A stretch of 64,000 nucleotides of DNA, from positions 930,001 to 994,000 of the forward strand of contig JARUPZ010000020.1 in NCBI GenBank assembly GCA_031213475.1, written 5' to 3'. The DNA comes from Nereocystis luetkeana. Taxonomy: Eukaryota > Sar > Phaeophyceae > Laminariales > Laminariaceae. Positions 1 through 46,275 of this stretch are shown here, one piece after another. Position 1 is the first letter of the stretch. The number at the start of each line of letters is the position of its first letter. Under the pieces are notes generated by a model. That model was not told where the DNA came from, searched no databases, and worked only from the letters and a program-made list of their open reading frames with translations. A program made the position numbers and the translations under genes.

Positions 1-8163
<8,163 letters not shown>

Positions 8164-10849: not shown

Positions 10850-11955
10850 GGGCGTCGGGTGCGCCAGACCGCAGTCCTAGGCAGCCAGAAACGACTCATG
10901 AGGTGTTTTCGCGCACTCGAAGTTGCGAGCGAGTAGCGCAAAAAACTCCCAAAATCGCTAGTGAAAATGTTTCATTTCACGCGCAGGAGCACAGTAAAAT
11001 GGCTACATCACCGATGCAGAAACGGCCTTCGCCAAAAAATATTGCTTCTCTCCAGGCGGCTGATATGTCTATCTTTGGGTGGCCGTCGAAGATTCTTGGG
11101 GGCGCGAAACTACGTTTAGGATAGTAAGCAAGTTTAGGATAGTAAGCTTAGTAAGGAAGTTAGTGGGGCCAAAAGGGCAAAAAAGGGCAAAAAAACTCTG
11201 GATTTTTGTATATGAGTATCAATCATTCTAAAACTTCGAAACTCGGATCTTGGATGCAAATCCCTTACTCTGATTCCAAGTCGTAAGCATATGCAGAACG
11301 CCTGCGCGCGGGTACTTGACGCATTCCTGAGGGTACTAGCGTCCTCTTAAAACATAGGAAGGTTTCCTGCACTACACCGATACACTCTTGTTTTTATTGT
11401 CATCCTGGCGCCTTGCTCTCTGGGCTCATACAGTAGCTTGACCGTGGTACAATACATACCCCAACGCACCCGTCAGCGCACAGTAGAGCACAACAAGTCA
11501 GGATTCGACGACCCGCACTGGAAATTGCTGCCACTCGGCGAAGTACGGTCACATTCAATTCTTCTGCTGACCATTGGCTACAACCACACAAAAAAGAGTA
11601 GCGCGGGGAGTCTACACGGTCACCGTACGAGTGGACAAGCTTGCAGAAGATGCTCCAATTCCTGCTTCGGCCCGTCTACAATTGTCATGAGCGTCGACGT
11701 GCGCTGTGCATCAAAACGTGAACGTTACGATTCCAGCCTGAAGATTGTCCTAACTCGGTGCCCGGGTTATAAGTCGGATAACCAATACTAGCACCACCAC
11801 ATTCGCTTCGCACATTCCCCATCGGTTGGGCCCCGCCGTCCTTGTAGTATACCCTCCTACTGATAGCGTTGCGGTGACTTACAGCGACACACTCACGCCA
11901 ATACAATGCCAAGTCCATGCATTCTGCACAAAATGAACTCTTTGTTAGTTTAGAA

Positions 11956-14900
11956 TCATGTTGATTCATTTTCCAGTTCTTGGAGCAGGCCTTGTCGTAC
12001 TAGATGCTCCACGTCAGATCTCCGCAAGAGATGGGTGCTTCCTCGGTCAAGCTTCACACACCCCTGCCCAAACATAACGCCGGAAGCACAGTGTTAAAGT
12101 GGGGCGCAGCCAGCGGCCGCCTACAAAACTATCATAGCTTGACTCACTAGAAATCAAGAACAGGTATGAAACATCCTCATGACAAGGTGTGATTCCGGCA
12201 AAAACCGCCTATGCGACTGGTATAGCGTATGTCAGCCGATGACCTTTGTCTATTTCCCACGTGTGAGCTCACGTGATCTGTCATTATTTCCCCGCAGTCG
12301 CTGAGTACCCTGACTTCCACGTGCAGCTCCTTCGGCGGCTGTAGGTCTGCTGTCAGATCTAAGTTCAAGCCCTGGAATTTAGGAAGGACAAGATTGGCGT
12401 TCACTCGATATTATCAGATGGGCCATGGCATCAGCGGGGCTGTGGAGGGAATGGATAGTAGTCTCGCTTTGTGGACAATTGCGTGTGCTCACCGAGAGCG
12501 AAGCAATGTATAGCATAATCACATCAACGTCAATCTTAATCACAATAACCCCCCAACCACCATTATATATCGCCATGCCGCAAACTCCGTCGAATAATGC
12601 TGTCATACGTACCAGAAACTACAGCAGTATGAGTAGTTTGGGTTAGTATACTAGAAAAAAAAATACAACGATCGCACGGATCACAACCAAGGCAGCTCGG
12701 CCACTCCCGCGTGCTCCCGCCGCTGAGCTTCCACGCAGGGCATCTTCCAAGCAGGCGGCTGCCTCTCCTACTAATGTTCCTACGGTGCTATACGTACAGT
12801 AAATATGTTGCGTCGAGGTAACGCGTACACGTTTTTGGGCATCGCATCGTCGGCTTGCGTCTAGCGGTGACATACATCACTGGTGCCATCGCAGGCACTT
12901 CCTCGTGGTTCTCTTACGTACCTGGTACCAGGTACAACTCAACACAAGGCATGTCGGCAAACAGCTTCTCCTGTACATACTACAGCCGATAGCGCAACTC
13001 ACCAAGCGCCTATCATTCTATCGTAAATTAGAGACTGCCACGCTTCTAAGGGATGCCCGGTACACAAACTCACAACTGGCTGCTAAGATTGACAAGGACC
13101 GGCCACGCCACAAAAAAAACAAAGACATGGGCGCGCTATCCATAACTCTATAGTTACAGCTCCGATATTTACCCGTGTACCAGGTAGCTCGCGTCACAAT
13201 AATAATTGAGTTTTAGAGCAAGCACTGCTGTTGCCATGCTGATACTACGATACCTTGGGGGGTACAGTTATGCGCATGCATTTACATGTGATATATGCCT
13301 CTTTTGGTGTCGCATCAATAAAAGTATTCGGCACCAGTTGCGATTTGCTTGACCAGAGCTCAGCTATCGCAAAAACATGTTCCACTATCAGCCCGTGGAA
13401 GGCAGCCCAAAAGGGTCCCTGAAAAAACTTGCCGATTGTTTTTTCGGAGCAACCGTTGACGTGTAGTGGCCCAATTCCACGTTTGGATCTTTGGGGACAT
13501 TCGGCTGGCGCCAATGTGAGCGGCTTTACCTGCGTGAAATTCGTGAGAATTCGATCGTACTTGTTGAATAACTCCATTTCTCTGGCGCTCAAGCTCTGCT
13601 GCAGCTCTTGCGGAACCACCGGTCCTGTTTCCCAGCGTAATTGGGTGATGCTGCACGAAGGTATCATACAAGCGCATGGGCGCGCACAATGTCAAGCATT
13701 AAGGTAGCGTCCTAAAAAAAAAAGAAGACATCGCATATTGCTCTATGATATAACTTCTATATGTGCGACATAGACTCTAACCCCAATAGCTGTAGGCTAC
13801 GTACCACTGCTGCTGAAAAACTTCTTACTCATATCATTAACCATAGGGTTACGGCCAGGGCTATTACTGGAGCCTTAGCTAAAGCTCCAACTCCAACTCG
13901 TTGCATTTATGATATCAGGCACGATCGGTACCTCGTACCTCGTCATATATACATTTGCATTTATATTTACACGCTCATACACTATGATAGCCTACCTTTA
14001 TATGTACGTACGGGACCAATTTTCATTCTTCAGCAAGTGACCCGTGAAGTCGTTCGTACGTATTGATTCTCTTTGTTGCAAGGTCTCTCGGAGTTCATTT
14101 CCTTTGGGCTCTGAAGTCTGAAGTGGTGTGATATTTCGACTCATACTTTCTTTATTGTATAGTTGATACATACAGGTGACCGGTACTAGCTGGCGTCTAG
14201 CTTCTCGCGTTTTCATGACCTGCATGCAAGCGTGCACCACATACACACGCGCAGCGCATATATAGCATATATAGTGTGGAGTATGAGGCGGCCAACAAGA
14301 AATACCTACTCTTAATGTGAACAAGGCTTACGGCGTGTCCAAACATAATCGAAAATCAAAATGATACCTGGTAATAAACAAGGCGCTGATTGGTCCCAGG
14401 CCCAAACATGTTCCCCTTCGTTATTTAGGTTCCGAAAAAATGAACGATTTACAACCCAATGTCAAAACCAAAAGCTGACGGCTGAGATTGGAAAAGCAAA
14501 TCGAAAACACGATCAGCAACAATTCAGCGCGTACTACTCGTCACACCATCCAACCCACAGCTACAGAAGTAGCACGGCAACACAGCCGAACAGACCCCTC
14601 CGTAAACAACTAGCAGGCAAACCACAACACTAGCCCCGACGTTCTCGGGCCTTTGTTTCCCGGCGTTCGAGCCAAGGCGAATATAGTTTGAGGAAATTTG
14701 AGGATGATGCATACACTCCAAAACAAGGTCCGAAGTTCGTTCTCAGTATAATTTCAAGTTTGATTCCGGGACGTCAAGGTTGGATGCACCACCACCTCCA
14801 CGGGAGGGCCAACGACGTCCCGGAATCGAATTACCGTCGCGTTTGCCTGCTTCTATGGTGGATCTGTGTTGCCGAGCGCTAGATTGTCGGCATGTGTGCA

Positions 14901-17900
14901 CAGTTGTGAACGGCCCGAGTAGGTTGTGCTCTCCGTTGCTTTTCGCCTGGATTTTTATTTTCACATTTCGATTCTGTTTGGACACCTCGGCTAATTTTCA
15001 TAGAAATCGGATTAAATTCGATTTTCGATTTCGATTTGTGATTTTGTTCAGACACGCCCTTAGCGTCGATATTGACTGGACTTTTTCTGGTTTCGCGGAA
15101 AATTCTCAGATCGCAGCATGTTGTTTCGCGCTTCTCGGATTTTTCCAGCCTCGGTAAAATACTTAAAATGAATTTCTCAGATCGCAGAAAAACGTCGCAT
15201 CGTCGCAGAGCATTGGGCGGGCGCACGGTGTGAGGGGTGTATGCCGTATTGCCACTCGCCACGGTACATGGTAGATCAGGGTCATCCCCAGAATCATTTC
15301 CAGGTCATGGCTGGTCGCATAAAGCGCCGTGCATCAAGAGCTCTATTTGTCCACTCGACAGAGCCGACTCACCGGCACAGCCGAGATCAACACGATATCG
15401 ACAGTTATTTTCGTGTCGTGGAGGGCTTTGTCGCGCCAGGACTTGATTTAAGCTACACTGTACGGTCGCGAGGTACGGTCGCGTCTCTGGGAGTCGGGGC
15501 ACATCTAGCGGCACGATCAAGCGGACGGCCTTTCCGCACGACGCTAGTTTTGGCGATTCACTCAGATTGACGAGGGTTGCAACCTCAAGAAAAATGATAC
15601 CAGGCGATATTAGGACCCACCGCCTTTTTTTCGCGTTTCTCGAAAAATTCGGGAAACGGGAGAAATCAAGGTTATACGAGTATAAAATACAGATAGATTC
15701 GACCCTACAGCAGTAAGAACCTTCTTGTGACACCATCCCTGAATCACCTTGAGCTTCTTTGTTGTTTTTTGAGGGCAAAACATTCAAGAGTAATGCAGTC
15801 TTAAGAAGAAACAAATGTTTTTTTTTCAGTTGCTACACTATGTCTGGTATGATTTCGACTTTTCATGTCTCCCTACCGAAAACAACAATTCTCTAGTTCT
15901 AATGCTCAGACCATCTCCATCGGGAGTTTTAGAGAGCGTAGATCATAGGCGACCTTTTCGTGTCAGGCGCCGGATTGATCCGACGCCTTTTTCATCACGA
16001 AAAGGGCCTCCTCCCCATACCTCTGTTGCCTATATAGACTAAATTGAAAAATGGAAGTTTCTCAGGCTGCTGATACTGTTTTAATTGAGGATTTCGACGA
16101 TAACACCCGAGCACTATTATAGTGTACCGTAGAACTTACCTGGGCCTCTAGTTTGACCGTCCGAAGCGTCCTACTACTACTACTACTACTACTACTACTA
16201 TTAGGCCGTCACAGCGGAGTGAAAATACCAAGCAGGAGCTCCGAAATTCTTCAAGCAATTTCGATTCGTGATGCAAACATAGCAATGCCTGTCCTCCCTT
16301 GCAAATCCAAGGGCCCCAACACCTCCTACAGTAGAGACCATAACCTAACCCTAACCCTATACGTTCGTCGGGAGATGGTCTAAGCATTAGCACTGATGTT
16401 ATGCCGTGTTCTGTAAGGAGCCATGATAGGGCGTTATTTTGTGCCAAGAGAAAGTACGGCTGCAGTAAAAAATACAATACCTGGTGTTTTATTTCTTCAA
16501 AAGACTCAAGTACGTACCAGGTACGAGTACTCTTTTTTTGTTTTGACCAAAGGGGCCCCTTGGCGCAGATTTCTTATACAGCGCAGTATAGCGTCCTCCA
16601 AAAAGTGAGCGTATCTACCAGGGTATTAATAACTACTGCTGTATGTACAGGTACCTAGTACGCAGGTTCTTTCTTATTCGTGGGCCTGTACTGCATGCTC
16701 TTCATACCAGGTGTCAGTATCCTGGAACAACAAACAGCGCACCCCATCGATACTGCAAACTACAGCAGTCGGAAGTACAAAGTTGAGTATCACAACTATT
16801 TAATCAGTCGAACTCACAGCTGACGTATTTCATAATTTAACATAAGGGCCCATCTTAGACCTACGCAAATGGAAACGCGAACTTCAAATTTTTTTTTTCA
16901 AATATATTGCTTTCAAAGAACAGCCGAAAATTTCCTCGTGCCGCCGCTGTTGGGAAAAAAGAGAAATATATATATAATATACCATACCAATATATTTTCC
17001 CCCACGGCTGCAGGCGGCGCAATTTGTTTTTTCTGCTTGCAAATTGTCAACATGGTGATAGATACCAGCTCGTGCGACGATTGACGCTCGATCTCGATAT
17101 ATAGATGACGGCCTCGAAGATATCAGGTGGATCCATGGTCTAGGGGGCGAGAGCTTGACGGCGGCGTCCTGCGGTATCCTCCCAAACCTGAAAAAAAAAC
17201 TATTTTTTGCCATTCGAGACGGATATAGAAGTTTTGTCTTCTGTTTTGTGCAAACCAGCGGCCAAAAAGTTTTTTTTATAATACGCCTGGTCAGCTCCCG
17301 CCACATGACACCGGCCATGGTGTGAAGACGGTGACCCTAGGGTGGGTCGGAGCCCCTAACGAGCGCACTCTGTTCAGAATTCATGACGCAATCGTTGGTT
17401 TTGTTGATCGATGTCTGTCGAGGACTCGGAATCTCGCCGCTTCGAACTAAAGATCGGCCAGAGTTTTTCTCACGTCGATGTTGGCCCAACATCGGCCCCA
17501 GATTTGTTTTATTCGGGCTTTTCCAAAAGTTAGGATTTTTTTTGTTTTTCTAAACCTGCCATAGGAAGCGTGTTCTAAATATATATCTGGAGGGTATCTT
17601 TGAAATTCAAACTTTTTATTGATACTTCGCTTTCCCATTGGCATACCAGGTAGGTCTTAACGGGGGCTTTGATTTAATTCATTTTTTTTTTGTCTTCTAA
17701 CATAAATCGCATCTGATTGGCCGAAGAGCGATCGACCAAGCAGGCAAATTAGAAAATTTGAATTTGAGTGAAAAGTCTTTTGTGACTTTTTGCGTGTTAT
17801 TTTTTTTATTTCAATTCGGAATTCGGGAGTTCCTCGGTCTTGATGTACTGTTTGTAGCATGTTCATGGTGGGTCAACACCTTCGGTGGAGTCTGGGGCGA

Positions 17901-19079
17901 TTCTTGGCCGCTTCGGTGACCACGATCGAGGCGATAAAACGCGAACCTCAACGAGAGGTGACCGGATCAATAGCCGCGCCCACGCCCACACACCATAGCA
18001 CATCGTACCCCGGCGGTGGCGCCTCAAAAGTAATCATGGCGGCCGCAATCCCAACTTTTCGGCCTGCTCGATCGGCCAACAATCACGAAACCCGAGCAAA
18101 CGAGCAAACAAGCGGAGGATACGCTCGAGACCTCGAAAGCTGCATCATCGCTGCCATTCCACACGTGGCGCTTGAGGGCTCCCTCCGCCCACCCAAGACA
18201 CCCTGAGAGTGATAGCTTCCTATCCTGCACGACCAAAAAGAAAAAGAGGCTGGCGGCGGCGCGCTCGCGGCAGCGCAAACCTTCGCTCTCGTCTACGCGC
18301 GTCGTTGTTTGTCGGCTGGGCGCTGTGTGACGCGGTGCGTTTTTTCCGATTTCTATTTTGATTGTCAACTAGTACGCTGTTCCCCGATAGGACACAAACA
18401 CTTTTTTTTTCGAAATCAAATTGAAATTCATTGAAATTAATTTTTTACTTCCGTTTATAGCGTTCCCCGTTAGATGGACCTAATAACCCACGCGTTGGGT
18501 TTCAAATTTCAAATTTGAAAATACTCGTAGAAAATATGCAGAGAGCTCTGGCCGGAAAACCACTCGGCAGGCTGGCTTATGATGACATTAATACCAAATC
18601 GAATGCCCTACAAGCGCAAACCTGTCTGCTCGCTGCTTGAGGTACGTTAGAAGACAGCGCTTGTTGCGGAGGAGGGCTTGGTGGTGTACCACGAGGCTGA
18701 CCTTGACAGGATCTGGTATGTCATCCTATGTACCGGAACCAGTAGAGCAGCAGGACGTAATGACGTAACGACAGGAGGCCGAGACGAACAATTAGTGCAT
18801 AACGTAGCGGTTCATGTGTAGCTCTTCATACAATAACATGTAAGCGGCACACCAGCCTCGCTTTACACACGGTCACACCATGCCATTTGAGATCGTCGTC
18901 ATCACCGCTGTGTTAATGATTCTTACCGTTGTCCTCCCGCCCAAAGTATCCGTGAGTTCGTCGTAGAGAGCCTGAATCTCGGCTAGGACACCACGAACGC
19001 CGTCTTCATTGTAAGCTGGTAACCAATCGCTCCTCTTAAGCTCCACGAGAAGGTCTCTACTCTTGATCCCGAAGTTCAT
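11956..19079 (-). CDS. PSF1: GINS complex subunit PSF1, complete, five exons
   Basis: PSF1 is one of four GINS subunits; with CDC45 and MCM2-7 it forms the replicative CMG helicase in the nucleus. Exons on the minus strand: 19079-18927, 18701-18622, 13650-13530, 12371-12273 and 12063-11956. All introns are GT-AG and phases match at every join, giving 186 residues (animal PSF1 is about 196). Exon 1 has the start and LPAYNEDGVRGVL. Exon 2 has the family core LLRNKRCLLTYL. Exon 3 has LRWETGPVVP and EMELFNKYDRIL. Exon 4 has QPPKELHVEVRVL.DCGEI. Exon 5 has the C-terminal HLLRRSDVEHLVRQGLLQ and the stop. Intron 2 (13651-18621) is about 5 kb and holds MITEs R2b, R1b and R3a. The start faces the SNARE gene across 282 bp. 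No damage was seen. Confidence 0.92.
14365..14373. repeat. TA-CCTGG-TA micro-insertion in R2b
   Basis: Removing CCTGGTA restores a gap-free alignment with R2a around 2978-2992. This is one of the cases that shows the motif is an insertion. Confidence 0.6.
14562..14571. repeat. TA-CAGAAG-TA micro-insertion in R2b
   Basis: R2a reads CACAGCTAGCACGGCAA at 3176-3192. R2b has the same sequence with CAGAAGTA added after the TA. It differs by one base from the abundant TACAGCAGTA motif. Confidence 0.75.
16171..16200. repeat. (CTA)n microsatellite
   Basis: About ten CTA triplets in a row, inside PSF1 intron 2. Confidence 0.9.
16858..17656. mobile_element. MITE family R3, copy a, nested inside R1b
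   Basis: This 799-bp element has inverted ends based on GACCTATGCCAATGGAAACG and is flanked by TTA on both sides (16855-16857 and 17657-17659). The host sequence is the terminal region of R1b. Two related copies lie at 21404-23034. A TWA target duplication again suggests PIF/Harbinger. Its right TIR carries a CCAGGTA insertion (17644-17652). Confidence 0.85.
17644..17652. repeat. TA-CCAGG-TA micro-insertion in the R3a terminal repeat
   Basis: The R3 end consensus (both ends of R3c) reads ATTGGCATAGG. R3a reads ATTGGCATACCAGGTAGG, an exact addition of CCAGG plus a second TA. Confidence 0.8.
17846..17856. repeat. TA-CTGTTTG-TA micro-insertion in R1b
   Basis: This is at the same site as the TACAGTA of R1a and the bare TA of R1c. 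Three copies therefore show three states of one TA site. Confidence 0.65.
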
Positions 19080-19361
19080 GGCTATGCGGCACCCTGTATA
19101 TCAGCTCGGCTTGGTGACTGGCAACCCGCACGCCGCACGGTACTGGTCGGTCCTGCACACCAAGGTCTGCACCAACATTGGAAGGCCTCGCATTTAGGGA
19201 GCCGGGCTTCATAAAATGACATACCAGAGGTATGATACCAACCAGCTGCTGTGCCAGTGCAGAGCTGCCAGACAAAGACTGCTAGTGCCTGCACCCTTTT
19301 ACCAGCACTGCTCAGTGCCTGCTCTGGGCGTTCTCCTGTTTCCAGCTTCACCCGCCGAGGA
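19080..19361. promoter_or_regulatory. Divergent intergenic region between PSF1 and the SNARE gene
   Basis: Only 282 bp separate the PSF1 start codon (minus strand, 19079) from the first possible SNARE start codon (plus strand, 19362). The 5' UTRs and core promoters of both genes must fit here, so a shared bidirectional promoter is likely. No TATA box or defined motif was recognised with confidence. Confidence 0.7.
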
Positions 19362-22300
19362 ATGTCGCTCAATACGATGGCAGCGCATGATCCATTCTAT
19401 GCAGTACGAGAGTGAGTCCTTTCCCCTCTCTACGATTTAGATGTCTTGGAAACTTTGTACTTTTACGAGGATACCTGTTGTATTAAGTATGCGATCGGCC
19501 CTGTTTCACCGCACACACGTACAAGTAGGAAGCAGCGTTGAGATCTAACCGCGTCGAGCTGTAGGAAGTCAATTGGCGCTGCATCCGAATGCATCGAGGT
19601 GCATGATAAATTGCTGTGTTTGAACCATTGCACGCATTGTGCATCAGAGCGGCACCCAGGGTGGCGGGCCTCCAATGGCGCTTGTGGTCACTGAGATCCC
19701 TCGGAGATTGCGGCAGTCGGAACACTTGTGATCAACTCGGAATGCCATTCTTATGATTACACTTACTTGTCATCAACCCGGTAGGCAGTACCTGGTACGT
19801 ACCAGGTACCTCGTACTATTAATAATAATAACAATAATAATAATACTTCTTGGTTGCATTCTATGGGTAGGCACAATTCGACGCGAGTCGACGAGGGAAG
19901 AAAACGCTGAAATCTTCTCGCGATAAAAATGAAGGCACGTACCGTAGCGGGAAGGGGGGAGAAGAGCCTACTATGTGACCCCGGATCTGAGTTACGAGTT
20001 CGAAGGAGAGAGAGAAGAAGATGTGCGAAGATAATGAATGGGATGAGAAAAAAAAAAAAAAAAAAAAAACTTTGGTCTTGTACCGCTAACACTTCGTGAT
20101 CAACACCAAGCACGGTGGGGATACTCTACCAACACAGACCACATCGTAGAACAATAGAATATACCAGGTATCATTTAATGTTAATGTTAATGTGAATATG
20201 AATATTAATCGCTTGTCATCAGCGGAATGGGATTATGTACTGCAATATGGTACGTGCTGCAGTGCAGTATTACGAGTACGAGTTCAGCTCGTAAATACTA
20301 CCGGACGTATTGAACGTACGTATTATACCTGCTGTACGTATAATACCTGCTGGTTGTCTTACCTGGTACTGCTGCTGTATTCATAGACTTGACTTTTAGC
20401 ACTTTGGGTAATTGTGTGTGCCACACCAAACACCAGCCTGCCAAGCACGGTGGGGGCTATAATAGCCTATTGCCATTTAACGTGGGAGGAAGCACACCCC
20501 CCTTACCAGGTATTAATAGATACCTGGTACCTAGCTGTTAGCTGTTAGCTGATAGCAGTCCCGCCCACATGAGCACACCCGGTGATACATACTTTTTGTC
20601 CGTTTTTCGATCAGCACTTTAGCACCGGGGGTACGTTGAATACCACACCCCGTACGGAGGTGCATCTGATTACGGCATCAAAATCAAATATTTATCACAC
20701 CTCCTTCCTGGTGGATACCATCCACCCACAACGCTGCTATTACTCCTCCTACTCTGTGCCCTAAGTCCCAACCACCGGCGCCGGTAATAGGTTTGTGGCC
20801 AATCACGGAACTTGACGTGTGTGATTGTAGCAATATCTAGAAAACCATCCAGTGCGGAATGCTATCATACGGCGGTGTACTTGTGTTCGGGGCGTCGGCT
20901 ATTAATAGAAAGTAACGTTACATATTATGGCAGCAGTTACTTTTTGAGTGGGGCAAGGGCCTCTGAGATGCAATCCCTCAAGGTTATGTTCTACAGGGTT
21001 TGTGGATTCTGTGTACGGGTATGGAAGTATTACAGAACTTACAGAAGTTTCTGGTAAGGGTGCAGGAGTCTTGCAGAACTCACATAACTTCCGGGTATTG
21101 TGGCACGGGCGTACAGAACTCATAGAAGTTCCGGGTATTGTGACACGGGCGTACATACCTCAAAGAAGTTCCAGGCAGGTACGTATAACAATGTTTTACC
21201 CGTACCCCGGGTATTGTGGCACGGGCGTGCATAACTTACAGAAATCCCGGGCATGGGTATGAAAGTGGTACAGGCCTTACAGAAGTTCGTGGTACGGGTA
21301 TGTGGGCATTGTACGTACAGAACGCACAGAAGTGCCGGTGTGAATTCGCGCCTCAAGGGGATGAAAAGCAACAGATTCACTCGTCAAACAAATACACTAT
21401 TAAGACGTACGATGCAAACGCGAAGTTTGAAAGTTTTCTTAAGAGTATTGCTTTCAAGAAACAGCCGAAGATATGATCGTACCGCCGCTGTTGGGAAAAA
21501 ATAGCTTTTTATGTCTGTTTTATGTCTTTTGTACAAACGGCTGCAGGCGGCGCAATTTGTTTTTTCTCGTTGCAGATTGTCCACACGCTGATAAAAATCA
21601 GCTCGTGCGATGACAGACCTTCGATCTCGACATAGACTCAGCCCAAGGCCAACCTGCTTGGTTTCAGGCAAGGCCAACGCGAGTAGATGACAGCCTCGAA
21701 GATATCAGGTGGATCCATGGTCTAGGGGGCGAGCGCTTGCGGGCGGCGTCCTACGCTCTCCTCCTGAGAAAAAAACTCTTTTTTGCCGTGCGAGACGGAT
21801 CGAGAATATTTGCCATTTGTTTGTGCACACCAGCGGGCATTTTGTTTTCATCATACGCCTGGCCAGCACCCACCACATATCACCGGCCATTGTGTGAACA
21901 TTGCGGGGACCCTACTGTAAGGTGGGTCGGAGCCCCTCACGAGCGCACTCTGTTTAGAATTCATGACGAAGTCGTTGGTTTTGTCGATCGACGTCGAGGG
22001 CTCGGAATCCCGCCGCTTCGAACTAAACATCCACCTGGGTTTTTCTCAAGCCGGTATTCGTCCAACATCGGCCCCATAAATGTTTTTCGTCGGGGTTTTC
22101 CAAAAGTTTGGAACTTTCGATTTGAAGAATCGTGCTCATAGCAAGCTGTACCCGAAAGTTATGGCGGTGAGACCTATGCCAATAGAAACGCGAAGTCCAA
22201 AAGTTTGCTTTCAAATATATTGCTTTCAAATAACAGCCGAAAATTTCCTCGTACCGCCGTTGGGGGGGAAAAAAGAGAGATCATGTTTGATTTCTTCCTG

Positions 22301-32714: not shown

Positions 32715-33120
32715 AATGTGGGAAGTACTCCAACCGGCGATTGCCGCGCGCGAGCTCCGTTTGCTGGTTGGCGAGGTGGCTCGAGCGAGGGGGTGGTGTG
32801 GTTGTTTTGCTCCAAAGCTCGGTTTTTGGAGTTCCAGTGATATCCACGAATACGATGAAAAAAACGGGGTCTAAAAAAACATGAAACAACACAAGATACG
32901 CCGCAAAACGTCTGAAAGTAGGTTATATTTTTTGTCGGACTCCTGGTATATCATACTGCCTGCACTCATTCATGTGCTCTTAGAATGATTCAGAAAACAA
33001 GCGCTATTTATGGAGCACGTCCTTGGCTCTTTCTCGCTTTTCTACCCAAAAGCGCTTCCCTCCGTTGCTCCGTCACTCCTAGCGGTGGCGACACTGCCAC
33101 TGCTACCAGGACCTCGGACG

Positions 33121-36100
33121 TTACGACCGCTGACGCTCCAGCTCCAAGTGAAACTGTCGGAAGCCATCCAGCTCCTCTTCCAATGACCGCTGCCACAAAC
33201 GCAAGCACGGACGGCACGCAACGGCACGTAGCGGCTCAACTCAAAACTTCACGTTGCGGTTATCCTCCTCTTGTTGTTGCTCACTATTGCAGGCGGCAAG
33301 CGTGATCCGTGACTTTCACGTACCCGCGATCAAGACGCAACGCCACTACCGTTTCACAGCTTCGGTTTGCAAAGTAAAATCCGACTAAGTACTGCTCGTC
33401 AAGTGTTTGGGTGAACACGGAATATCTAGACAGGACGCGACAAAAATGTGGAATTTCGCCAAAACGTCGCGGTGCCTATGGTCTATAGATAGAGTACCAG
33501 ATAATATCATAGAGGAAGATAATGTAGAAAACCAAAGACAAAAAAAACATGTTTATTTCCTAGCAATATACCGAAAGCGATGACAGTCTATGAACAGAAG
33601 AAGTAACTATACAAAATATCACGATTAACACGAGCACTCACCACTGTTTTCCCTACCCCCTCCTCCCCATACATTTCGCCTGCATTAGAGTACGATGTGG
33701 CCGTGGCAGCGGCAACCCCTTCCCAGTTTGCCGCATCTGTATCTGCATCACCACGTTCCCGCGAAAACCCCAGTGCCTGTGCTGCTTGCTCTGTACTTGC
33801 CATTGGCGGGCTATTCTGCATCAACAAATCAGACCTAAGACGGCGCAAAGGACAACGCACGTATCATACAAGTGTCACACGAAGTATTAGTAAAAAGTTT
33901 CGTTAGGTACGATTCAGACAACGTAAAAATCGTACCGTGGACCAGCTTCGGTTATAACACAAATACGAGCTCGACACGGTGTGCGATTATAACAAAACGA
34001 GTTTTTCGCAAAGCAGACTTGTTTTCAAGGGCGGAATAGGGGCTTGATGATAACATTCCACGACTGAAGAATTTCGGGTTTACGCCCGATCCACCCACGC
34101 TCACACGGTGAACATCTCTCTGTTTACGTCTAGCACATGACGAGGTGCACACGGTTCATAGGGCCTACAGTAGGTCTGTAATGCCCACGCAACAAATTTC
34201 CGTCCGTTGCCTGTGTTTTTTTTTACATACTTGCAGCATCTAACAATGCCTTGGACAGTGATTTTCAGGTGAGTTACCAAAAGCATAGACGCCAGTCGTC
34301 AGTGGGCCAGCGGTACCGTGCCCACCACGGGAGCCTTCGAAACCAATCCAACTATTAACCCTTTTAGAACCGCAGTCCCGTTCTGGGGACAAACCAGTCA
34401 AATTTCAAGTAGTTTTGTCCCCAAACGGGACTGCGGTTCTAAAGGGGTTAATACGCTTCACCAATATCGCACGCCAATCAGGATGGTCGTCCGGCGCAGC
34501 GGCACAAACGCATGAGGCAAAATGTAGTGGCATTAGCAGGTCGTGCGGCAAACACACGCTGACCCCGTCGACTCGCGGCGCAACTGCCGTGTGGTGTATT
34601 TGATTTGGTGAGCAAAGTTGCAAATACTGCACATATATCTATAAAGTCTATTAGTTGTTCGTTCGTACCTACTGTAAGTTTCCAGTTAGCAGTTAACAAT
34701 GCATGAACGTGGTATACGATATACAGCAGTAGACTCTATAATCTACTCCAAACTAAGTATTGTACCATATTCTACTGACAACGCGGCGTATGGCAGAATA
34801 TTGCCAGGTACGAGGTACCCGATACGTAGACTGTATGTAGGTGGGCCAGAACCCATCTAATTTTTCAACATAACCTATAACCGTGGCGAATATTCATGGT
34901 GAAAAAGTCCATTGCACTCCACATACTATACTCACTTTGAACTCGAGGCAGAGCACAACGCGAACAGGCTAGTCGGAGGTAAACTTGCCGCGACGCCCCT
35001 CCCATCATCGACCCCAAAAACGCTGGGATCTTGCGCAAGTGGTTCGATTCGTTCGTCGAGCATCTCCACCGCAAACGGCAAGCCCTGCCAGCCCTGCCAA
35101 GAGACGGACGACGAGCGAGCGAGACAGATTGCAAGGCACCACCTTACACGTTAGAATGAAGTCAGTGATTAAAACACCGGCGAACCAACAGTATAATCTG
35201 GAACGGCAACATCAGCAGCGAAACCAACGATCCATATGTGACCGTTCCGACAGCGTCTCGGGGACTCACGTCAGGAAATACTGAAACATAGTTGGGTGGA
35301 ACGCATGACCGAAGTGCGATGATACCATAATCGGGGCAATACGTGCGGGAGGGTCTGCCGTTCTGCCGCAGTAATATAGTACCTGCCTCCTTCTACATGC
35401 TACATGGAAATGAAGAAGAACGCTGGCAGGCAGGTCCATATCAACATCTCATATCTCATTACATCCCACCCACACCTCTGAAGGGTCTGTTCCCGCCACT
35501 TTGTTGGGTCTTGCATGCGCCAACCTTCCTGTTGTGATGGGCGATGATCGAGATGCTGGTCGACGTGCAGAAGTGGCCTTGTCAACCACCGTGGGAGGCT
35601 GGATGTTCTCTGGTCTGCGCCCCTTCCACGAGAAAGGCGACTCTGGAAGCGTCTCAAGGAGGGCAGGCGAACCACTCGCACTACCAAGCAAGCCCAATGC
35701 AGCGCGAGGCCCCTGACACGTTACTTCTGAACCATGGTGCAACTTGGCATCAAGGCCCAGGGAAGGCGACTCCTCCGCCCCCCGCCCGCTGATTCCTTGC
35801 CCAACTACGCCTCCGTGTCCACGAGGGTCGACACAAGGGGGTTCGAAGGGCGGGCTGAAACTGACCAAGGGTTGGCCCAGTCGGAACGGCGAGCCATCGG
35901 CCTCCACCCCTGCAGGTCTCGCCGATGAAAACTCTTCGCAGTACGAGAACGGAGGTGTCAACGCAGGTGGTCGTTGGGCGTACGTGTCGGGCCCATGCCC
36001 TGCTGTGCTACCATTGCCGTGCACCTGCGAAAAAGAAAACAATGCCCGTATCAACATGTCACGTAGGGGCCGCCACAACGTCGCTGAAGCAACAACGTGC

Positions 36101-39100
36101 GCGCCTTACAGGATAATCCGTTGATTGATTCCCTGTAGAACTTGTCATAATAGAGCTGAAGTAAACGCGTGTGAAAATAGTACCAGACCAGATGCATACC
36201 TGGCAAATACTACCAGTTCCTGTAGTATAGTGCATGTAGCACCTAAGACAGCACTTGCTACTCCTGTGAGAGCGAGTAAGGCAGCGAACAAGTAACGCGG
36301 TTTTAAGGTCGTAGACACCACTCCTGCTAAATATCACGGCTGACACAACTCTAGTATTCGAGTATCTCCGTGGGGGGGAAGGGGAATACTCGGCTTACCG
36401 ACAGCAAGGCCTGTTCGCGTGGCACTGGTGTTGCCGACGGCGCCTCGCAAATCGAATTTCGCCTGTAAAACCGCCGTGCCGTGGCATCGGTTCCCTCCTC
36501 TCCTCCCAGTGCACGTGCCGTCTGCACAGTACGGGCAAACAAGGGACATTTGTGACAACCACCCGCGTATTCCTAAACATTACCCCACCATGAGCGAACG
36601 GGCATGGGTTTCATACTGTAGTACAAGTATAATACAACGTCAGCAGGCATACGTCAACAAAAAGCTGGTTCACTACTCGTACGATACGCGGGAGGAGTAC
36701 GAGCACTCAAACAAACCACAGCACAACGGCGGCAGAGTCCTGACACCCGTCGGTTTGTATCACGGCTTGGAGAATCGAAGTCAGAACGCTCACCAAACCT
36801 CGTTGCCCCAAAATGCCGCCCCGTAAATGCTTGTCTTGCACGTGGAAGCCAGCCAGGTGTGGCTCCGGCAGAGATCCTTCTTTTCCGTCAACGTCGCTCT
36901 GTACACCGGCACATCAGTACGTTAACGTCAACATCAACATCAGGGTAATTGAAATTTCTCAATCAACTGTGAAGAAAGTGGACTGCTGATTTTACAAGAC
37001 CTTCCCCGCAATCGCATCGATCAGTAAACCCGTCATAGCTGCTGCTCTTCAAAATCATCCAAATGATCGAAATCATCCAAATGATCCAGCAACGTTGCAA
37101 CATTAATCGGCATACCTCAAGGCTACCGTGCGGCTCGAGGGAGCGAAACGCGTCAGGTGCGCAGTGAGCCACATATTCTGCCGAGCAATGTCGGTCAGAG
37201 TTCCTCCTCCCCACGCTGCGAGCAAATGCCTCCACATTATTCTGCGCCATGCAGCCACCATGTCCTGGCGGCTGCAGCCTAAACAAAATGAGCATGGGGA
37301 AGAGCGGGAAGTTGGGCGTTTGTGCGTGTGTGCGCTCGACGGGCGTTCCTCGTCGGCCACTGAAGTACACCAATAAACCTACCGAGCACAGTGGCCTGCC
37401 TCACCATTGGCACCATGGCACTAGCCGCACTTTACAGGAGCGGCACCGCTAACGCAGACATACAATATCCATCATAGCGTGTAGTCATTCAATGCAGCCA
37501 GAGGCGCGAACTGCAGCACCCCATTTCGGTGTCATCCTTTGCCGTTTGGTGAACACACGCAAGTGGAATCGCTCACAAAGGAGTTGCGATTCTTGTATCC
37601 CAAAGGGGCCAACAATTAACATGACATGGGAACCCATAAAAAACGGACAGCACGAGTTTGTCTGCCACGACGGCGCTCTTGTACGTTAGGATACGCGCAG
37701 TGACCCATGCCCGTGTAGGCTCAGGGGCTGTTTCAGGGGTTGGAATGACGGGGAGTCCACGTGCGTTGGAGTGACGATGCGCCTTGCGTTCGCAGAGGAG
37801 GCACAGCTCTCTTGCACGCGTGTCTCGCGCTAGGCTGTTAATGTTGTTGCGCGTGCGGCATCGGGCTTATATATGGTACACGTTTGACTATTCTTCGTCC
37901 GTGATTACCTGGTAAGTTACTACCTTTCGCAGATCAGACTATGGTGGTGGTTGGGCTCAATGACTCAATTTTTCCATGGGACTTGTTTCTTGTGGCTGCA
38001 AACCATATTGCTCGTGCAGGGTTGCACCATTTTCAGTACGTCTTGAGACGTAAGAATCGCCTCTGACGAAAGCTGTAAATGAAAAACATGTCATATATCA
38101 CATTTCGATTCCACTACTCCAAGGCTAGCCGGAGGCAATCTCACATGTGCAACACTACTGTGCCTCGTGCAGAACTCACCCAGCAACAGCTCGCACACAA
38201 GGATCTCGCGTGTCCGCGTCAGCATTAGGCCCCAAGTCTAGCGGCTCCATGTTCACGTCGGGCCTGGTCGAGCAAGCATTCAATTGCACACAATCAACTG
38301 TGTAAGACTCACGTGACACCACACTAAATAACGACACGGACGTTTGGTCGACCGTGCCCAGTCACTACTCGGCAGACCAAATCAATGTTCAGCTCACCCG
38401 CTCGGCGCAACGTGAGCAACATCGTACGTAATACCACAATGAAAAGGCCCGGATTTGACCTCACCCTTGCCGTCCACCTGGCAACAGTTTATGCCGATGA
38501 GGTCCCGGCGTCAGAAATGGAGCCGGCCCCTGCCCCAGAGGTTTGTTGCCACGCTTATGGGCGTACCCATGCCCTTGCTCTGGAGACGGCCAGTGCAGCA
38601 CGTCTGGCCCTTGTCCGGGGTTTGCCTCATCGACCGTCCCAGCATCATCGTGACGGTGGTGCTGCAAATCTATTCGGGAATGTGGATCGATCGCTGCCCC
38701 CGAATCGGAGGGAAGAGCAATCTCCAGACCCCCCGTGGCGTCGGTGCAAAATCGTTGCCTTTCCAATCCGGTACCTCGGCTAGAGCTATACCCATCGGAC
38801 CCATCGGTACCAGTGCCTGCCGCCATGGCTCCGTCCTCTTGCATAGTGGCTAGTCTTTGCCACTGCTCGTGGCTCGTTTCTCCTCCAGATACCGCCGCCA
38901 CCGCCGTCACCGTGGGTGAGGCAGCCGCAGGTGAAGGTGAAGGTCCCGGTGCATCTCCCTCATGCTCATCACGAAGACCAACGGTGTGCTCGTAGTCGTG
39001 CGGCACGTAGTCCTGGATGATGCTCGTCGTCATGTTGGGTGCCAGACTCGAAGTTTTCTTCTTGACCGTCTGTCCGTGCTGATACGCCTGGTGATCAGGG

Positions 39101-42100
39101 TGAGCAAGCCAACATAAACGGGCATGGAGACCAAAGCAGCACGGTATTAAGCCATGATACATACCCTGGTAATCTACAAGATCTGTTCACAATGCATGCT
39201 TGCCCTTAAACCATGACCAGCATCTTCCACCATCATCCAGCTAGCCGCCTGAAACGTTAAATCGCTTGTTTATGACCACGAGCGTTTATAATTCACTTCC
39301 GAATAATGCTGCTCGTGCGTACCTGGTATGATTTAGTTGCTGCATTTGACGCGTGACGCGCTTTCGGGCGGTAAACGTTAGGAGGAAAGGTGCACAGGGT
39401 GTTTGGTAGTACAGTTGTACCCACGACATCACACAGTCGACGCATGAGATCCAAAGGCCGAAAAGCCAATAATGACCTGCAACAACCCAATCGAGCTGCC
39501 AAGTGAGGAACACCCGTTCAAGGCCACACCACGTGGATAGCATGTCAACATAGCATGTCAAGACATAGTTCAGTTGTAGGAGGCCATACCCTCGAAGGAC
39601 CTTACTGGAAAACAAAACGAAACCAACGGCATGCTCATGCATAATAAACACTTGTCCAAAGACATACACGATCGTGGCGCACCTTCGAGTCGACGCCTCT
39701 AAGATACGTCACCTTCATCTTGATTTTCCCATGGGGTGCTTCCAACGGCTTGAAGGAGTACGAATCCGTCGTCGATGCAGTTTGGCCGCCATGACCCACA
39801 TGGGTGTTCACATGAGTCTCGTCTTTCTCTCCACTGCCGGCGCTGGAAAACTCCAGACCTAAGCCGCCTCTGCTCAAATCGAGTATGGGGTATAAGCAGA
39901 ACCCCATGTCATCCCGCGTGTCCACAAGGGCTCTATCCCTGCTGTCATACGCCTTTTCGATCCGTTCATGCACCTGCACTCGGTCGGCAAGATATTCATA
40001 TAAATGAATAAGGGTTGAGTGCACAGCAGTAACACAAATGCTGTAGACTACAGTACTCGTACGTATTATTAATATTAATAGTAGCGGTTATTTACCATAC
40101 TTCGTGTTCACTCCTACTGTACTCTCATACTATTATTAGGTACTGTATGGTATAGTACAACCCGACAACGATATGCGTTGCGTGCTGCCCCTAGGCGTTA
40201 CCTTGTAACACGCGTCTTATGATCAGGGCGGTAGAGGTCGGTGTAAGTCTTAACGTTAGAGTTCGGTTGGGAGCTGCCCATCCGAACAGACAGCCAACGA
40301 AGGATGGTTACTGGAGTACGTACGTAGGGTTTGCGTGAACCATTTTTCCAAGTGGATGGGCGTCAGCAATTTGAACCAAAAATGATGTACAGGAATCGTG
40401 GTCCCGATATGGCGGTCCATACTGTGAAGAGAGAGGTATTGAACCCGCTGTTTAGGGCGATACCGCTACCGCTATCTCGGAGGTGTCAATAACAGCGGCG
40501 TCACCCGCTATATCGGGAATAAGCGCTACAATCGCTGAACAACACTATCTTGACAGTGTCATGTGTGTTATATTCTTGTTGGAGTACGAGGTACGACGTA
40601 CTAAAGTACAGCGGGGGTGCAATGCATTTGTACACACGTGCGTATAGTATACATGTGGAGTGTGTCACTCAAAGAAAGAGAGCTCGCCGGAACAACACAG
40701 GTATGCACAGATGCTTCCACCAACTGAGATTAAACAATGTTTGAAAGAAAAAAAAACTACAGGTACTTTGCGTACGGTACACAAAGTACTTCGGGAGAGT
40801 ATTCCCGGGTTCAATACTCTTGGATATTCCCCGTACTGGAAGTATTTGGGATGTTGGTACATACTGCTGCACTCTTGTGGTTCTGTACTGCACATACTCT
40901 CGGGGTTCTGCACTGTTTATACTCCCAGTCAGTACTCGCAGTCTTTAGGACTTACATATGATAGGTGCCTTGAATGTAACGGCCATAGTACTTGCCAATT
41001 ACATTTTCGGCTTCTTGTTCCTTTGACCGGTAACAAAGCAAAACAAGCCGAATATTACTTCTTGTACTCCCAGCACTCGCAGTAGTTAGGCCGCATGTAC
41101 AGCAATACTATGGTGTTTGCGAAGTTCAGATTATGGTTCGGTTTAGCCTATTTCTATTCTCCCGATCCCAAAGAATAATTAACGTCCCAAAATCGGGACT
41201 CAAAATCGGCTCATATGACCCATATCTTTACAATTTTTTCGGGTTGGGTTTGGCTTTTTGGGTTTCGATTAGGATCATCAAGTTATTGGCCAGGACAACC
41301 CGGAATCGCCCCGGACGAATGAAAACATCGTATTTGGCAAGAGATCATAATCGTCTACGAGTACGTCAGGTACTCATCGCAGAGCGTACTGCAGCAGCCA
41401 GAAGGAGGGAGGCATGATACATGGGTTGCCTCTCACCACCAAGCTATCTAACCAAGCGCACGGCCCATTTGGAGCCCTCGGTATGGCCGGCAAAGGCATA
41501 CGGCCATATGAGGCGGAGGGCTGGCAGGGTGCAGCTTCAACATCGTTGACGGCGCCGTGTGCGTTGTGGACTGCTGCTGAAGTTGTTGCTCTGCTGTGCT
41601 GCTTGTTGTTGCTGCGGCAACAAAGTAGCGGTAAACTCTGGGCTCTGGGGCGTGATACCGCACCACAGACACACCCACAGCACGCCTACGCATGCACTGC
41701 ACAACAGGCCCCGGTCGATCGATTGGCACTCTTCGCATGACTGCCATAGAGCACACACAAACGCAGCGAGCCAGCAGCAGCAGCAGCAGCAGGGAGCAGC
41801 GTCTCGTACGAAGCCGTTGGTGTTCCATTTTTCGTGCTTTTATTTCGTTATTTGTCATTTGTTGCTGTATTCTAAATTCCTAGAATTTTATTTCCAGTTC
41901 AAAGCCCGATTATGTTTTGGTTTGGTGAGTAGCCTATGGTTCTCAACCCAACCATAATCGGTTCTTTCGCAAACACCCTAAACTCCGTACTCGGGGTACG
42001 ACATGTACTCGATACACCGAGCTCGGAGTATGGCGTACCACTATTAATACTGTAGGAGTATCTGTGCAGATATGAAAATACTTCGGAGTATGTCATGCTG

Positions 42101-45094
42101 CTATGTGATCGCCAGGGAGGTCTTTCCGCCGCTATGCCGGCAGAGGTACGCTGTACCCAAAAAGTAGTCGTCTTGTCCGTGTGTGTATCGATACGCGCTG
42201 CAGCGAGCCGTCCAGAGGCACTACGTCCCGACATCAGCACTACAACGAAGCAGAATGCACTCCCACTCGTATACTTGGTATGGTATACATGTAACAGTTA
42301 GGTCTATTCATACGCGGAGCATTATCATACGTACCCTGACCCGAGGTCACATGGTCGGCGTCCCCCCCCTCCTGACCTACTACCCCTCTTGCTGTTACGT
42401 AAAACTATTACAGAGTGTTGTTCAGCATTCCCGACGTCTGACGACTCGCGTCCAATTGAGCGTACACGCCGTATTGCCGCTTTGACGATACCTGGTACCA
42501 GGTATTGATTATTGATGGTGCACGCGCTTTCCGCGCTGTTCTTTCATCCACAACAAACGCTACTACTGCTGTTGCTTCTGCTCGATTTCGTTGTAAGCAT
42601 AGTATATCAATCAATCAAGACGTTCTCTTTGTGAGTCGACAATCGATTAGTTTGCGATAACCTAATCGGCTACTGCTGTCAAAAGGTCTTCGTAATGGTC
42701 CATTCCGGCTAATAATGTGAATAGCCCCAACTTCCAAGCCTATGCATGGCAATATCAAAGCAATCTCTGAGGAATAACGCCCCAACGGGTAGGGTGGGAC
42801 AGGCCTCAAAGCCCAGGTTTTGGTTCGTGGGTGAGCTCTCCCTCCCTCACTACCCGGGAGTGATGACTCTCCCTTAATGCCTACTGTATCTACACCGAAC
42901 CTACTACTGCCCCTATCGGGGGTCAGGTCGGGTCGGGTCAACATGCTCACGCGTCTGTGGTAACAGCAGCACTGCGGCCGGTTCTTCTGCTCTTGCGAAC
43001 CGTAGCGACGGGATAAATTAACACACGACGCGTATTCTAAACGTGGAAGTGTGGCGAGCTTAACCTATATTTTCAACAATCCACCATAGAATAGACATAA
43101 AATAATTATCATCGCACGGAGGCTAGGTGCGTGGTCGGGCTCACCTGATACGCTGGTATCATCCTCACAAAGGCGTACAACGTCCTTAGAAGGATAATCG
43201 CCCGCTTGTAGAGATGTCTCAATTGAGCGGATTTCGTTTCGACGCCATCTTGAGCCTCGTACCTATAGTAGTACCAGGTACAGTATTAATAGTAGCAGGT
43301 ATAGTAGTATTAATAGTAGCAGGTATATATTATATAGGTGTATACAGCAGCAGTGGCAGCGGCAGGCAATACCCCGTAGTCGGTATACAAGTACACGGGT
43401 ACATAGGTAGGAAGGTACAGAGGAGTGCTACAAAACAGTAGTAGCGCTCGTAGCGCACGAACCGGTCTCATACGAGGCACGTGCGTATACTCGTCCATGT
43501 ATGCACCAGGTAATACATCGGAGCTGCCAGAACATGTATACTCTTAACATCATTAGTACTAGTATCTACTATTAATACCAGGTACCAGGTATACGATACT
43601 GCTGCTGTGCTTCTGCCACGAGTAGCCTTCCGATTGCTCCCTCGGCCACACAAGTTTACAAAGAAACATATTCAGATGCATTCATACCTGGTGAATATTA
43701 AATATTGATACTGGTAGTAACAAATGCGGACGTGGCCTTCGCTAGTGCCATCGCGAACTCCATCGTACGTGCGAGTACTTGTACGATTATCGCGAAGTCT
43801 ACTGCTGTATATATGAGGTATAAACGACAAGAGAGTGCAGGGAATGCCTCCAAGGAAACCACTAGAAACACCAAACATCAACTGCCGATAGTTGGCTCTT
43901 GGCTCTGGTGTACTACTCTACCCGTATACGAAGCCTGTGCCTGTAAGCCTGCTTCTGTCTGGTTGTACTGTAGGTAGAGAGGTAGACCCTAAACTGTACA
44001 AGTACGTCGTATATACACCACGTGCTTGTTGCACGTCAAGTTCAACTCAAGAGTTCAACTGCGCCAAGTCATTGTGGTATCGAAAGCCAGCGATTCAACC
44101 CAAAATCATCTTCGACGCAGACATATCAATCTCATCGCGACCTCATTGCGACTCGTCTCTCATCTCACGACCGGCACACTAGCACTCTATCAACAGCACG
44201 ACTTACACTATATCCCATCGCTCCAGCAGTTCCACGCTTGGCGGCGCGTCTCCCAACCCCAAGCGCTCTGACTGCTCCGAATGCTCTTGCCAGAAGACAT
44301 CGATACCTAACGGCATGTGAAGATCGTCCTTCCACGCCTCCATAGAGTGGCGAACAAAAGCCAGTTCTTCCACATGCAAAGAGAACTGCTCGTGATGTGC
44401 GACGCATTGTTGACAACGGTAAGGGTATACGTACGGTGCATAATGAGAGGCTCATCGTATTAAGATATGATCACACTGCTGCTGCATCTAAGTGCTAAGG
44501 AGACCACAGACAGCAGCAGCAGAGCACCGACCTTCAACCATCAACCCCCCCCCTACCCTGAGAATAAAAACTATTTATACTATTCATACTATTAATACTA
44601 TTAATACCTGGTATTATTAACAATTGAAGGTACCAGGTACCTGGTAGTAAACAGCAGTAGTACAGCAGTATCAATAGTGGTCCTGCAGAAAATCACGTAA
44701 AAAAATACCGGTAAAAACTCGCCGACACACATCGAACTTGAAGAGCGAAAACCAGGGGGAGACTGGTGCGTTCTTTATCACTTCCGTATGATATACCATG
44801 CATGCCCTTGACGATCTCACGGCCATGCTTTATAGGATTAATTTGTGCGAGTAGGTGGGGCGTGGTTATTAGCCTGCTGTTGCTGCTGCTGCTGCTGCTG
44901 GTGCTGCTGCTGCTGCCGATCACGTGAATAACGTAGAGAACAAGACACCTCGACACCTCCCTCACCTTGCTATTTATTTCTCGGTCGCGTCTCTGCTTCT
45001 GGTGAAGGCTAACTCTGCTCGAGATGATAACCTCGGCGACCTTTTGCATGCATTCGAATACGACCTGATCACACTTTGATACATCGCTGCTCAT
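33121..45094 (-). CDS. ATG13: ATG13, regulatory subunit of the ATG1 autophagy kinase, eleven exons
   Basis: ATG13 binds ATG1/ULK1 and starts autophagosome formation. Exons on the minus strand: 45094-44966, 44385-44207, 43262-43145, 39973-39683, 39087-38465, 37278-37116, 36521-36399, 36024-35476, 35093-34936, 33834-33642 and 33189-33121. All are GT-AG with matching phases, giving about 864 residues. Residues 5-240 are the HORMA domain: SKCDQVVFECMQKVAEVII, PLGIDVFW, PPSVELLERWDIVYE, LYKRAIILLRTLYAFVRMIP and SFKPLEAPHGKIKMKVTYL. A long Ser/Pro/Gly-rich, probably disordered tail follows. It includes LPFAVE (about 730-735), seen in plant ATG13, and a charged C-terminus (SLEEELDGFRQF). Exon 4 could end at 39713, and exon 9 could start at 35084; both alternatives keep frame. 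The HORMA part is firm; tail exons rest on splice-phase logic. Confidence 0.82.
34359..34447. mobile_element. piggyBac-like micro-MITE, 89 bp, in ATG13 intron 9
   Basis: An almost perfect hairpin is flanked by TTAA on both sides (34355-34358 and 34448-34451). The arms begin CCCTTTTAGAACCGCAGTCC and CCCCTTTAGAACCGCAGTCC and pair for about 35 bp with one substitution and one small indel. TTAA target duplication and CCC termini are the piggyBac signature. Near-identity of the arms suggests recent origin. Confidence 0.8.
41773..41793. repeat. (CAG)n microsatellite
   Basis: Seven CAG triplets in ATG13 intron 3. They drive long but unsupported Gln/Leu frames. Confidence 0.85.
44876..44917. repeat. 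(CTG)n microsatellite
   Basis: An interrupted CTG tract in ATG13 intron 1, just after the first exon. Confidence 0.85.
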
Positions 45095-45407
45095 CGCGCG
45101 ACTGCAGCTGTACAGCACCAGTACCGCCGGAGCTTGTGGCGCGTACAGATTTTCTATTTTTAGTTTTCTGGTTTGTTGAATGAATCAAGGAGTTCCAAAG
45201 AGAAACGGTGGCAGATCCCCAAGAAAACGAGACCATCCCCTTTTTTTCTTTTCTTCTTTTTAAAATCAGAAATTAATTCTTTTTTCCCCCCATCCAAACC
45301 GTTTCCTCTTTTTTTTTTCTTGTTTCTATAATATAAGAAGGCTCTCCCTTTTTCGTTGTTGTTATTGTCGCACGGCCCAACCAACCAATGTCTTGCAGAC
45401 GACCCCA

Positions 45408-45758
45408 ATGTTTTTCAAGCCAACGAGGCCCGCGGAAAGCTCCCCTTTGCTCTTTGGAGTAGAGACGATGTTGTTTGTTATGGCCGGGGAGACGGCTAAA
45501 AGAGCGGGGAAAAAAGTGGTAATAATACCGGGGCGGGTCGTCGAAGCGCGGCGGACTGTTTTACGACGAGGCATCATCAGGGACGAGAGGCGCAGAGAAG
45601 CCGGCTGCACCACGCAGCTGAGGACGCCAAGAGCAGCGACAAGGGGATGGCGGGGGGGGGGGGCAGCCGTATTGATACAGCTGTCTGCGACTGCAGAAAC
45701 GAAAATTATTCAAAATGATCACACCTCGGACAGATCAGCTCACCGTAGCTCGAGCTAG
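45408..45758 (+). CDS. Unrecognised open frame facing ATG13
   Basis: A plus-strand frame opens at an ATG 314 bp from the ATG13 start and reads for about 116 codons. The Arg-rich part includes ETAKRAGKKVVIIPGRVVEA. It runs into the palindromic element that starts at 45723, so any gene would be broken or spliced before that. No family was recognised. The opposite strand is also open here. It may be a divergent first exon or chance. Confidence 0.15.
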   Translation: MFFKPTRPAESSPLLFGVETMLFVMAGETAKRAGKKVVIIPGRVVEARRTVLRRGIIRDERRREAGCTTQLRTPRAATRGWRGGGAAVLIQLSATAETKIIQNDHTSDRSAHRSSS

Positions 45759-45779
45759 CTCTTTTCGGGGGTAGCTCAC

Positions 45780-46275
45780 CAGTGAGCTATATGAGCTACA
45801 TGAGCTAGCTCGTCCGCCCCCGGCTTGAACTATAGGCGGTAGCTCATCTGCACATGTTTTCAAAGCTTGAGCTATAGAGGATAGTTCATCTGCACATAAA
45901 TGCCCAGTGTGAGCTATATAGGAGCTACATGAGCTAGCTCATATCTGCCCCCGAGATGAGCTATATGAGCTACATGAGCTAGCTCATATGCCCCCGAGAT
46001 CAGATGAGCTATAGGCGGTAGCTCATCTGCACATCTTTCGAAGGCTTGAGCTATAGGCGGTAGCTCATCTGCACATGTTTTCAAAGCTTGAGCTATACCT
46101 GGTAGGCGGTAGCTCATTTGCCCATGTTTTCAAAGCTTGAGCTATTATAGGCGATAGCTCATCTGCCCATGTTTTCAAAGCTTGAGCTGTAGGCGATAGC
46201 TCATCTGCACATGTTTTCAAAGCATGAGCTATAGGCGATAGCTCATCTGCACACATTTTCAAGGCTTGAGCTCCT
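45780..46275. repeat. Tandem array of 42-bp palindromic units, array 1
   Basis: The unit has an inverted pair, GAGCTATAGGCGGTAGCTC, then CATCTGCACATG, then TTTTCAAAGCTT. About eight to ten imperfect units are present. One unit (46096-46104) carries an extra CCTGGTA after a TA. Confidence 0.8.
46096..46104. repeat. TA-CCTGG-TA micro-insertion in an R10 unit
   Basis: Neighbouring units read GAGCTATAGGCGGTAGC. This one reads GAGCTATACCTGGTAGGCGG, an exact gain of CCTGG plus a second TA. Confidence 0.85.

Follow-up and report, generated by a model that had tools for sequence, protein, structure and literature searches.

The genome (465 Mb, 1,987 contigs) has 182,395 copies of the 9-mer TACCWGGTA, against 1,744 of a reversed-pattern control. 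This 9-mer is most likely a footprint left by excision of DD39D-type Tc1/mariner-like elements and their MITEs, a lineage that targets TA and whose ends begin 5'-CCASTCCGAC. The genome-wide density is about 1 per 2.5 kb. The window, by which we mean the whole stretch of 64,000 nt that was analysed, has 43 copies, and a 239-kb sample comprising the window and 18 other loci chosen across contigs has 92, where about 1.5 are expected from dinucleotide composition. With 13,345 TAs in the sample, these 92 sites put a footprint on about 0.7% of TAs. The CCWGG insertions are thus real and far more numerous than was visible in the initial annotation, which had described TA-flanked micro-insertions distinguishing repeat copies and had proposed a test for CCWGG+TA well above expectation. 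The copies in the window (1243..61944), given by their first bases, are as follows, those 7 bp apart having one TA in common.

1243, 4709, 5495, 7362, 7693, 8389, 8636, 8764, 8778, 12919, 12926, 13178, 14365, 16515, 17644
19789, 19800, 20162, 20360, 20504, 20521, 23288, 24802, 24809, 29035, 29042, 30388, 37906, 39320
42489, 42496, 43272, 43576, 43583, 44605, 44631, 44638, 46096, 46544, 46551, 54846, 54853, 61936

Five sites in the window can be compared with related repeat copies.

7362..7370, no strand assigned: footprint TACCAGGTA, gained by comparison with a related repeat copy
14365..14373, no strand assigned: footprint-like TACCTGGTA in R2b
14562..14571, no strand assigned: TACAGAAGTA in R2b, a gain of the CAGNAG class
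17644..17652, no strand assigned: footprint TACCAGGTA in an R3 copy
46096..46104, no strand assigned: footprint TACCTGGTA in an R10 unit

The reported insertions were borne out in substance, with one case that is not clean. For the R3 gain 20 other genomic copies were fetched, of which 14 carry unrelated sequence at the site and 6 span it, and all 6 are without the insert, reading GGCATAGGTC in five cases and GGCGTAGGTC in one. The R10 gain is also present, with plain TA or GTA in the adjacent units. The second R2b insert is, as had been described, a gain (CAGAAG) of 8 nt relative to R2a; at the first, TACCTGGTA is indeed there but its R2a counterpart is GATGGTAACC and not the plain TA that had been supposed. 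The CTG+TA-type inserts attributed to R1 are seen as a gain of CAG+TA in the copy at 10243 relative to that near 49.1 kb, with a longer variant in the copy near 17.85 kb. R10 itself consists of tandem units of about 42 nt around GAGCTATAGGCGGTAGCTCATCTGCACATG (window 45784-47449), with indels at the TA. Many R3 copies (window 17655 onward; L025-L038, where L numbers denote fetched loci) begin at GGGCCCATCTTAACGGGG after TTA or TAA, which we take to resemble a PIF/Harbinger-type 3-bp target.

At the sites tested the repeat copies show insertion rather than loss. When the 239 kb were compared with themselves, insertions of 3-60 nt were seen at 257 sites; four of these are of low complexity and were dropped from the dinucleotide tally and kept in the length table, and TA-CCWGG accounts for 6 of the 13 seven-nt insertions. 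The strongest test of gain comes from a 109-bp MITE, at a TA whose exact context is CCATAGTWAATA, the junction, and then GGACCWAA. Genome-wide there are 15,192 copies empty at this TA and 342 with an insert of 2-30 nt. Among the first 100 listed of these 342, exactly CCAGGTA or CCTGGTA is found in 35 (16 and 19 respectively), which is 35 of the 47 inserts of seven nt, 41 start with CCWGGTA and 86 end in TA. The same 100 include CCGG twice, CCATGG once, and TACCCTGGTA nine times, the last invariably in one orientation and perhaps copied by descent. A non-TA junction two bases along in the MITE, with a slightly different right-hand context and with inserts counted without a matching count of empty copies, has 57 inserts, all of which were inspected, and none is CCWGG+TA. 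At intervals of about 56.6 kb three MITE copies (G000:C2:8624468, 8681113 and 8737685) have a CCTAG+TA insert in common, as duplications that carry their inserts along would produce.

The same MITE TA links the footprint to an element. Of the 38 element ends beyond which a further TA follows at exactly 7 bp (see below), five have a TA in common with a TACCWGGTA footprint, two of them being L059 and L060, and L060 lies within the counted 109-bp MITE at the counted TA. When its joined flanks were aligned to MITE copies, L012 has CCWGG and L018 a 3-nt core at this position, the remaining copies being empty or too short to tell. One homologous TA is thus found in three states: empty, with CCWGG, and with an element next to a CCTGG footprint. 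No copy was seen at the counted site with an element alone, the sole element found there adjoining the footprint. A search of the 239 kb for abundant elements ending in TACCWGG found none: there are 96 TACCWGG without a following TA, of which one is the mariner end in the window, the recurrent contexts inspected are not termini, and no recurrent terminal repeat starting TACCWGG or TACCA stood out.

The mariner-like element in the window has the following parts.

30980..31195, plus strand: piece from the opposite side of the element, inverted in place by comparison with other genomic copies
31401..32714, minus strand: open frame for a putative mariner-like transposase, the DD39D residues being D182, D303 and D343
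32912..32948, minus strand: terminal repeat followed by CCTGG and TA, reading inwards TACCAGGAGTCCGAC, 3 bases longer than the usual TACCAGTCCGAC

The transposase has the motifs VDEKW, QQDNAPAH and NILDLGFF, its second and third D being separated by 39 residues, a spacing that we take to correspond to the DD39D label. It scored 31.4 bits with Pfam HTH_Tnp_Tc3_2 (PF01498; cut-off 31.5) and 38.8 bits, E 7e-10, with NCBIfam IS630 (cut-off 100), and its match to Mos1 is weak (E 0.033). A fold predicted from the single sequence (pLDDT 41.7) was too poor for use. No terminal repeat was seen beyond the 30980..31195 piece. This copy is damaged, and the likely source lineage is one of DD39D-type mariner-like elements. 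Of three other window frames scanned with Pfam, two had no match and one is a piece of a retroelement integrase (window 58079-58711; Integrase_H2C2 and rve). Elsewhere in the genome there is a series of diverged, stop-bearing relatives of the transposase, tens of kb apart and in two orientations (G000:C29:3890716-5049678).

The initial annotation had proposed a search for elements with termini matching the core. The related elements have terminal inverted repeats and ends of the form TA-CCASTCCGAC...GTCGGASTGG-TA, so that their first bases are CCA. Among 20 fetched stretches the usual end, TACCAGTCCGAC or TACCACTCCGAC, is present in seven (L042, L044, L046, L048, L049, L050 and L058). Other bases stand between the TA and the repeat in the window copy (TACCAGGAGTCC), in L054 (TACCTGGAGTCT) and in L039, L040, L041 and L057, L039 being a near-identical relative of the window copy; the remaining stretches are truncated, diverged or without an end. 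The end pattern TACCASTCCGAC occurs 192 times genome-wide with 84 for the control, about 108 net, and the number of independent ends is lower than this, because 15 of the first 100 listed are in one tandem array (G000:C16:774120-986417), where they form a regular series with main steps of roughly 22-25 kb. Of ten elements with both ends, five are MITEs of 573-583 bp, two others measure 621 bp and 83 bp, and the other three are longer. All have TA on both sides, as have L039 and the window copy; the latter two were found by homology, and the ten were chosen by a pattern that contains TA, for which their TA borders are no independent test. Identity among four of the MITEs (L060-L063) is about 90-92%, which points to an old family.

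Elements and footprints have one unusual target signature in common. In the 239 kb a TA lies exactly 7 bp out (TA-N5-TA) in 49 of 158 non-tandem footprint flanks, compared with 9-18 at nine other spacings, and genome-wide it does so in 115,718 of 364,790 footprint flanks (303 for the reversed control), the background among other TA flanks being 7.5%. For element ends the figure is 38 of 192, with 6 among the 84 control ends. Net of controls the signature is on 30% of element ends and 32% of footprint flanks. In the ten two-ended elements it is on 10 of 20 flanks (p = 5e-7 against the 7.5% background), on both sides in four, on one side in two and on neither in four. Of these 20 flanks 15 start with a pyrimidine, a preference that is not significant (p = 0.17). 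The element would thus appear to favour a TA with a second TA 7 bp away, and as the footprint is itself TA-N5-TA, footprints should become new targets and stack. Head-to-tail stacks with a common TA are found as 13 pairs among the 92 sites of the 239 kb, the four A/T combinations being represented 4, 3, 3 and 3 times.

The form of the core suggests how the footprint would arise. Tc1/mariner transposases are described, in the excerpts consulted of PMC7827188 and PMC2642840, as cutting the 5' strand within the element, at two or three bases from its end, so that the flanks keep 3' overhangs. The core between the two TAs is CCWGG and the element ends are CCA, and if excision left each flank with a 3-nt 3' overhang, CCA, two such overhangs could meet with a one-base overlap, A opposite A. 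Filling of the 2-nt gaps would give TACC(A.A)GGTA, and resolution of the mismatch to A or T would give TACC(A/T)GGTA. Such a joint predicts A or T at the centre in an even split, and the plus strand of the 239 kb has 47 CCAGG and 45 CCTGG, with C or G at the centre of just four sites. The initial annotation had ascribed the W to repair of a mismatch, and this fits both these numbers and the 16 and 19 among the first 100 listed MITE inserts. CCGG, with the A lost, and CCATGG, with no overlap, could then be slips of one joint. In the 239 kb TACCGGTA, the CCGG form, is 3.7-fold over expectation (22 both-strand counts, 11 sites), with the 7-bp signature on 16 of 44 flanks, each counted on both strands, and TACCATGGTA, the CCATGG form, is 9.9-fold over (4 both-strand counts, 2 sites). 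The initial annotation had also spoken of an unusual 5- or 6-base core. A model with a 5-nt overhang was rejected: CCAGT or CCACT ends would then leave ACWGG and CCWGT cores as well, and TAACAGGTA is absent from the 239 kb and TACCAGTTA present twice, against 92 for CCWGG. The 5-base core is therefore probably not a 5-base overhang, and two CCA ends with a one-base overlap fit instead.

Several points count against these elements as the source: their number, about 108 net ends against 182,395 footprints, the presence of the usual end in seven of 20 stretches, the four two-ended elements with the signature on neither side, and the MITE site, where no copy has the element alone. Footprints would be inherited and pile up with each jump, even for an element of persistently low copy number, and many scars must be old, as there are 104 one-mismatch forms of TACCWGGTA, where 38 are expected, next to 92 perfect ones. 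Long accumulation by a low-copy element is the simplest account of the number of scars. The scarcity of the CCASTCCGAC-ended elements and the variation of their ends between copies would also suit an origin of the footprints in another TA-targeting, CCA-ended family, now lost or much diverged, to which these elements would be minor relatives sharing its target preference. We think this unlikely, as no such terminal repeat stood out in the 239 kb, and the signature of the few elements is close to that of the footprints in size.

It is very unlikely that transposons played no part and that, for example, faulty break repair at TA added CCWGG. Such micro-insertion would suit the great excess of footprints over elements and the presence of other cores in some TA inserts, but gives no account of the 7-bp signature shared with CCA-ended elements, of elements at the same MITE TA, or of a core made of the element's first bases. 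Programmed or somatic excision, with elements present in the germ line and removed in the sequenced tissue, would account together for few elements and many footprints, and is nevertheless most improbable, given the many footprints that look old from their one-mismatch forms and the related CCTAG+TA insert in three C2 copies, which recurs as if duplicated. That TACCWGGTA is an ancestral or functional palindrome lost from some copies, as its near-palindromic form and high abundance might suggest, is scarcely conceivable: the gain duplicates the TA and is absent from the junction two bases off, and an ancestral motif was rejected at the R3 and MITE sites on the prevailing empty copies (6 of 6, and 15,192 against 342 with any insert). 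Excision by the DD39D-type lineage, which is what the initial annotation had proposed in general terms for TA elements, is best supported for CCWGG; the CAGNAG inserts, for which the same had been proposed, are not explained by these elements.

With regard to known systems, the chemistry belongs to a familiar superfamily and it is the scale that is unusual. The TA-flanked IES of ciliates are excised precisely and leave a single TA, whereas here two TAs and CCWGG remain. The Sleeping Beauty footprint is TA-C(A/T)G-TA, also with A/T at its centre. In the excerpts consulted of PMC7827188 this Tc1/mariner element resembles ours in duplicating TA, in leaving a few bases of the element end and in having 3-nt 3' overhangs on the flanks. 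However, the core here has 5 bp, which we read as 3-nt ends overlapping by one base and not by three. We take the DD39D spacing of the window transposase to be that of the plant mariners, and not the DD34D spacing that we assume for Mos1 and the animal mariners. The latter have TA as target and are cut, on the 5' side, within the element at two or three bases from its end, according to the part consulted of PMC2642840, but the footprint here is another one. For plant mariner and Stowaway elements (Osmar5, Ppmar2 and Triticeae Stowaway) the portions consulted of PMC1925063 and PMC9632168 describe 1-4 bp of each end between two TAs, and PMC1925063 a new element inserted next to an older footprint in Australopyrum, in both respects as found here. 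Those portions deal with a handful of sites and varied footprints, whereas here one exact 9-mer is present 182,395 times and follows a 7-bp TA rule. We met no report of footprints on this scale in the parts consulted of the CC0, CC BY and CC BY-SA literature of PubMed Central.

Most work on excision scars deals with a few of them, and here one 9-mer appears to record excisions genome-wide, so that past jumps of transposons could be counted, dated and placed even in the absence of the elements themselves. At 7 bp per scar the 182,395 scars have added about 1.3 Mb, and a gain of 7 bp shifts any reading frame that it enters. We suggest tentatively, and with more doubt than confidence, that the main lasting product of this transposon may be its scar, which would recreate the preferred target TA-N5-TA, seed insertions and stack, so that an element of at most about 100 copies and scars on about 0.7% of TAs would give a readable count of jumps in one lineage. 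Such re-creation of the target by the scar would, if true, amount to a simple positive feedback, and the 7-bp spacing of TAs is a trait of the transposase that can be put to the test.

There are other classes of TA-flanked insert. The CAGNAG/CAGCAG class is a second one, unexplained by CCA-ended elements: TACAGCAGTA occurs 42,001 times genome-wide against 955 for the reversed control, has a weak 7-bp signature (6 of 38 flanks), and in the 239 kb lacks a CAGCTG partner, CTGCAG being present at one site. TATTAATA, with a TTAA core, is 16-fold enriched and lacks the 7-bp signature (20 of 204 flanks). An inverted-repeat MITE of about 100 bp with ends TA-TTAACCC is present at window 34353-34453 and at L012 8546-8639, and as its first four bases are the TATTAATA core, TATTAATA may be its footprint.
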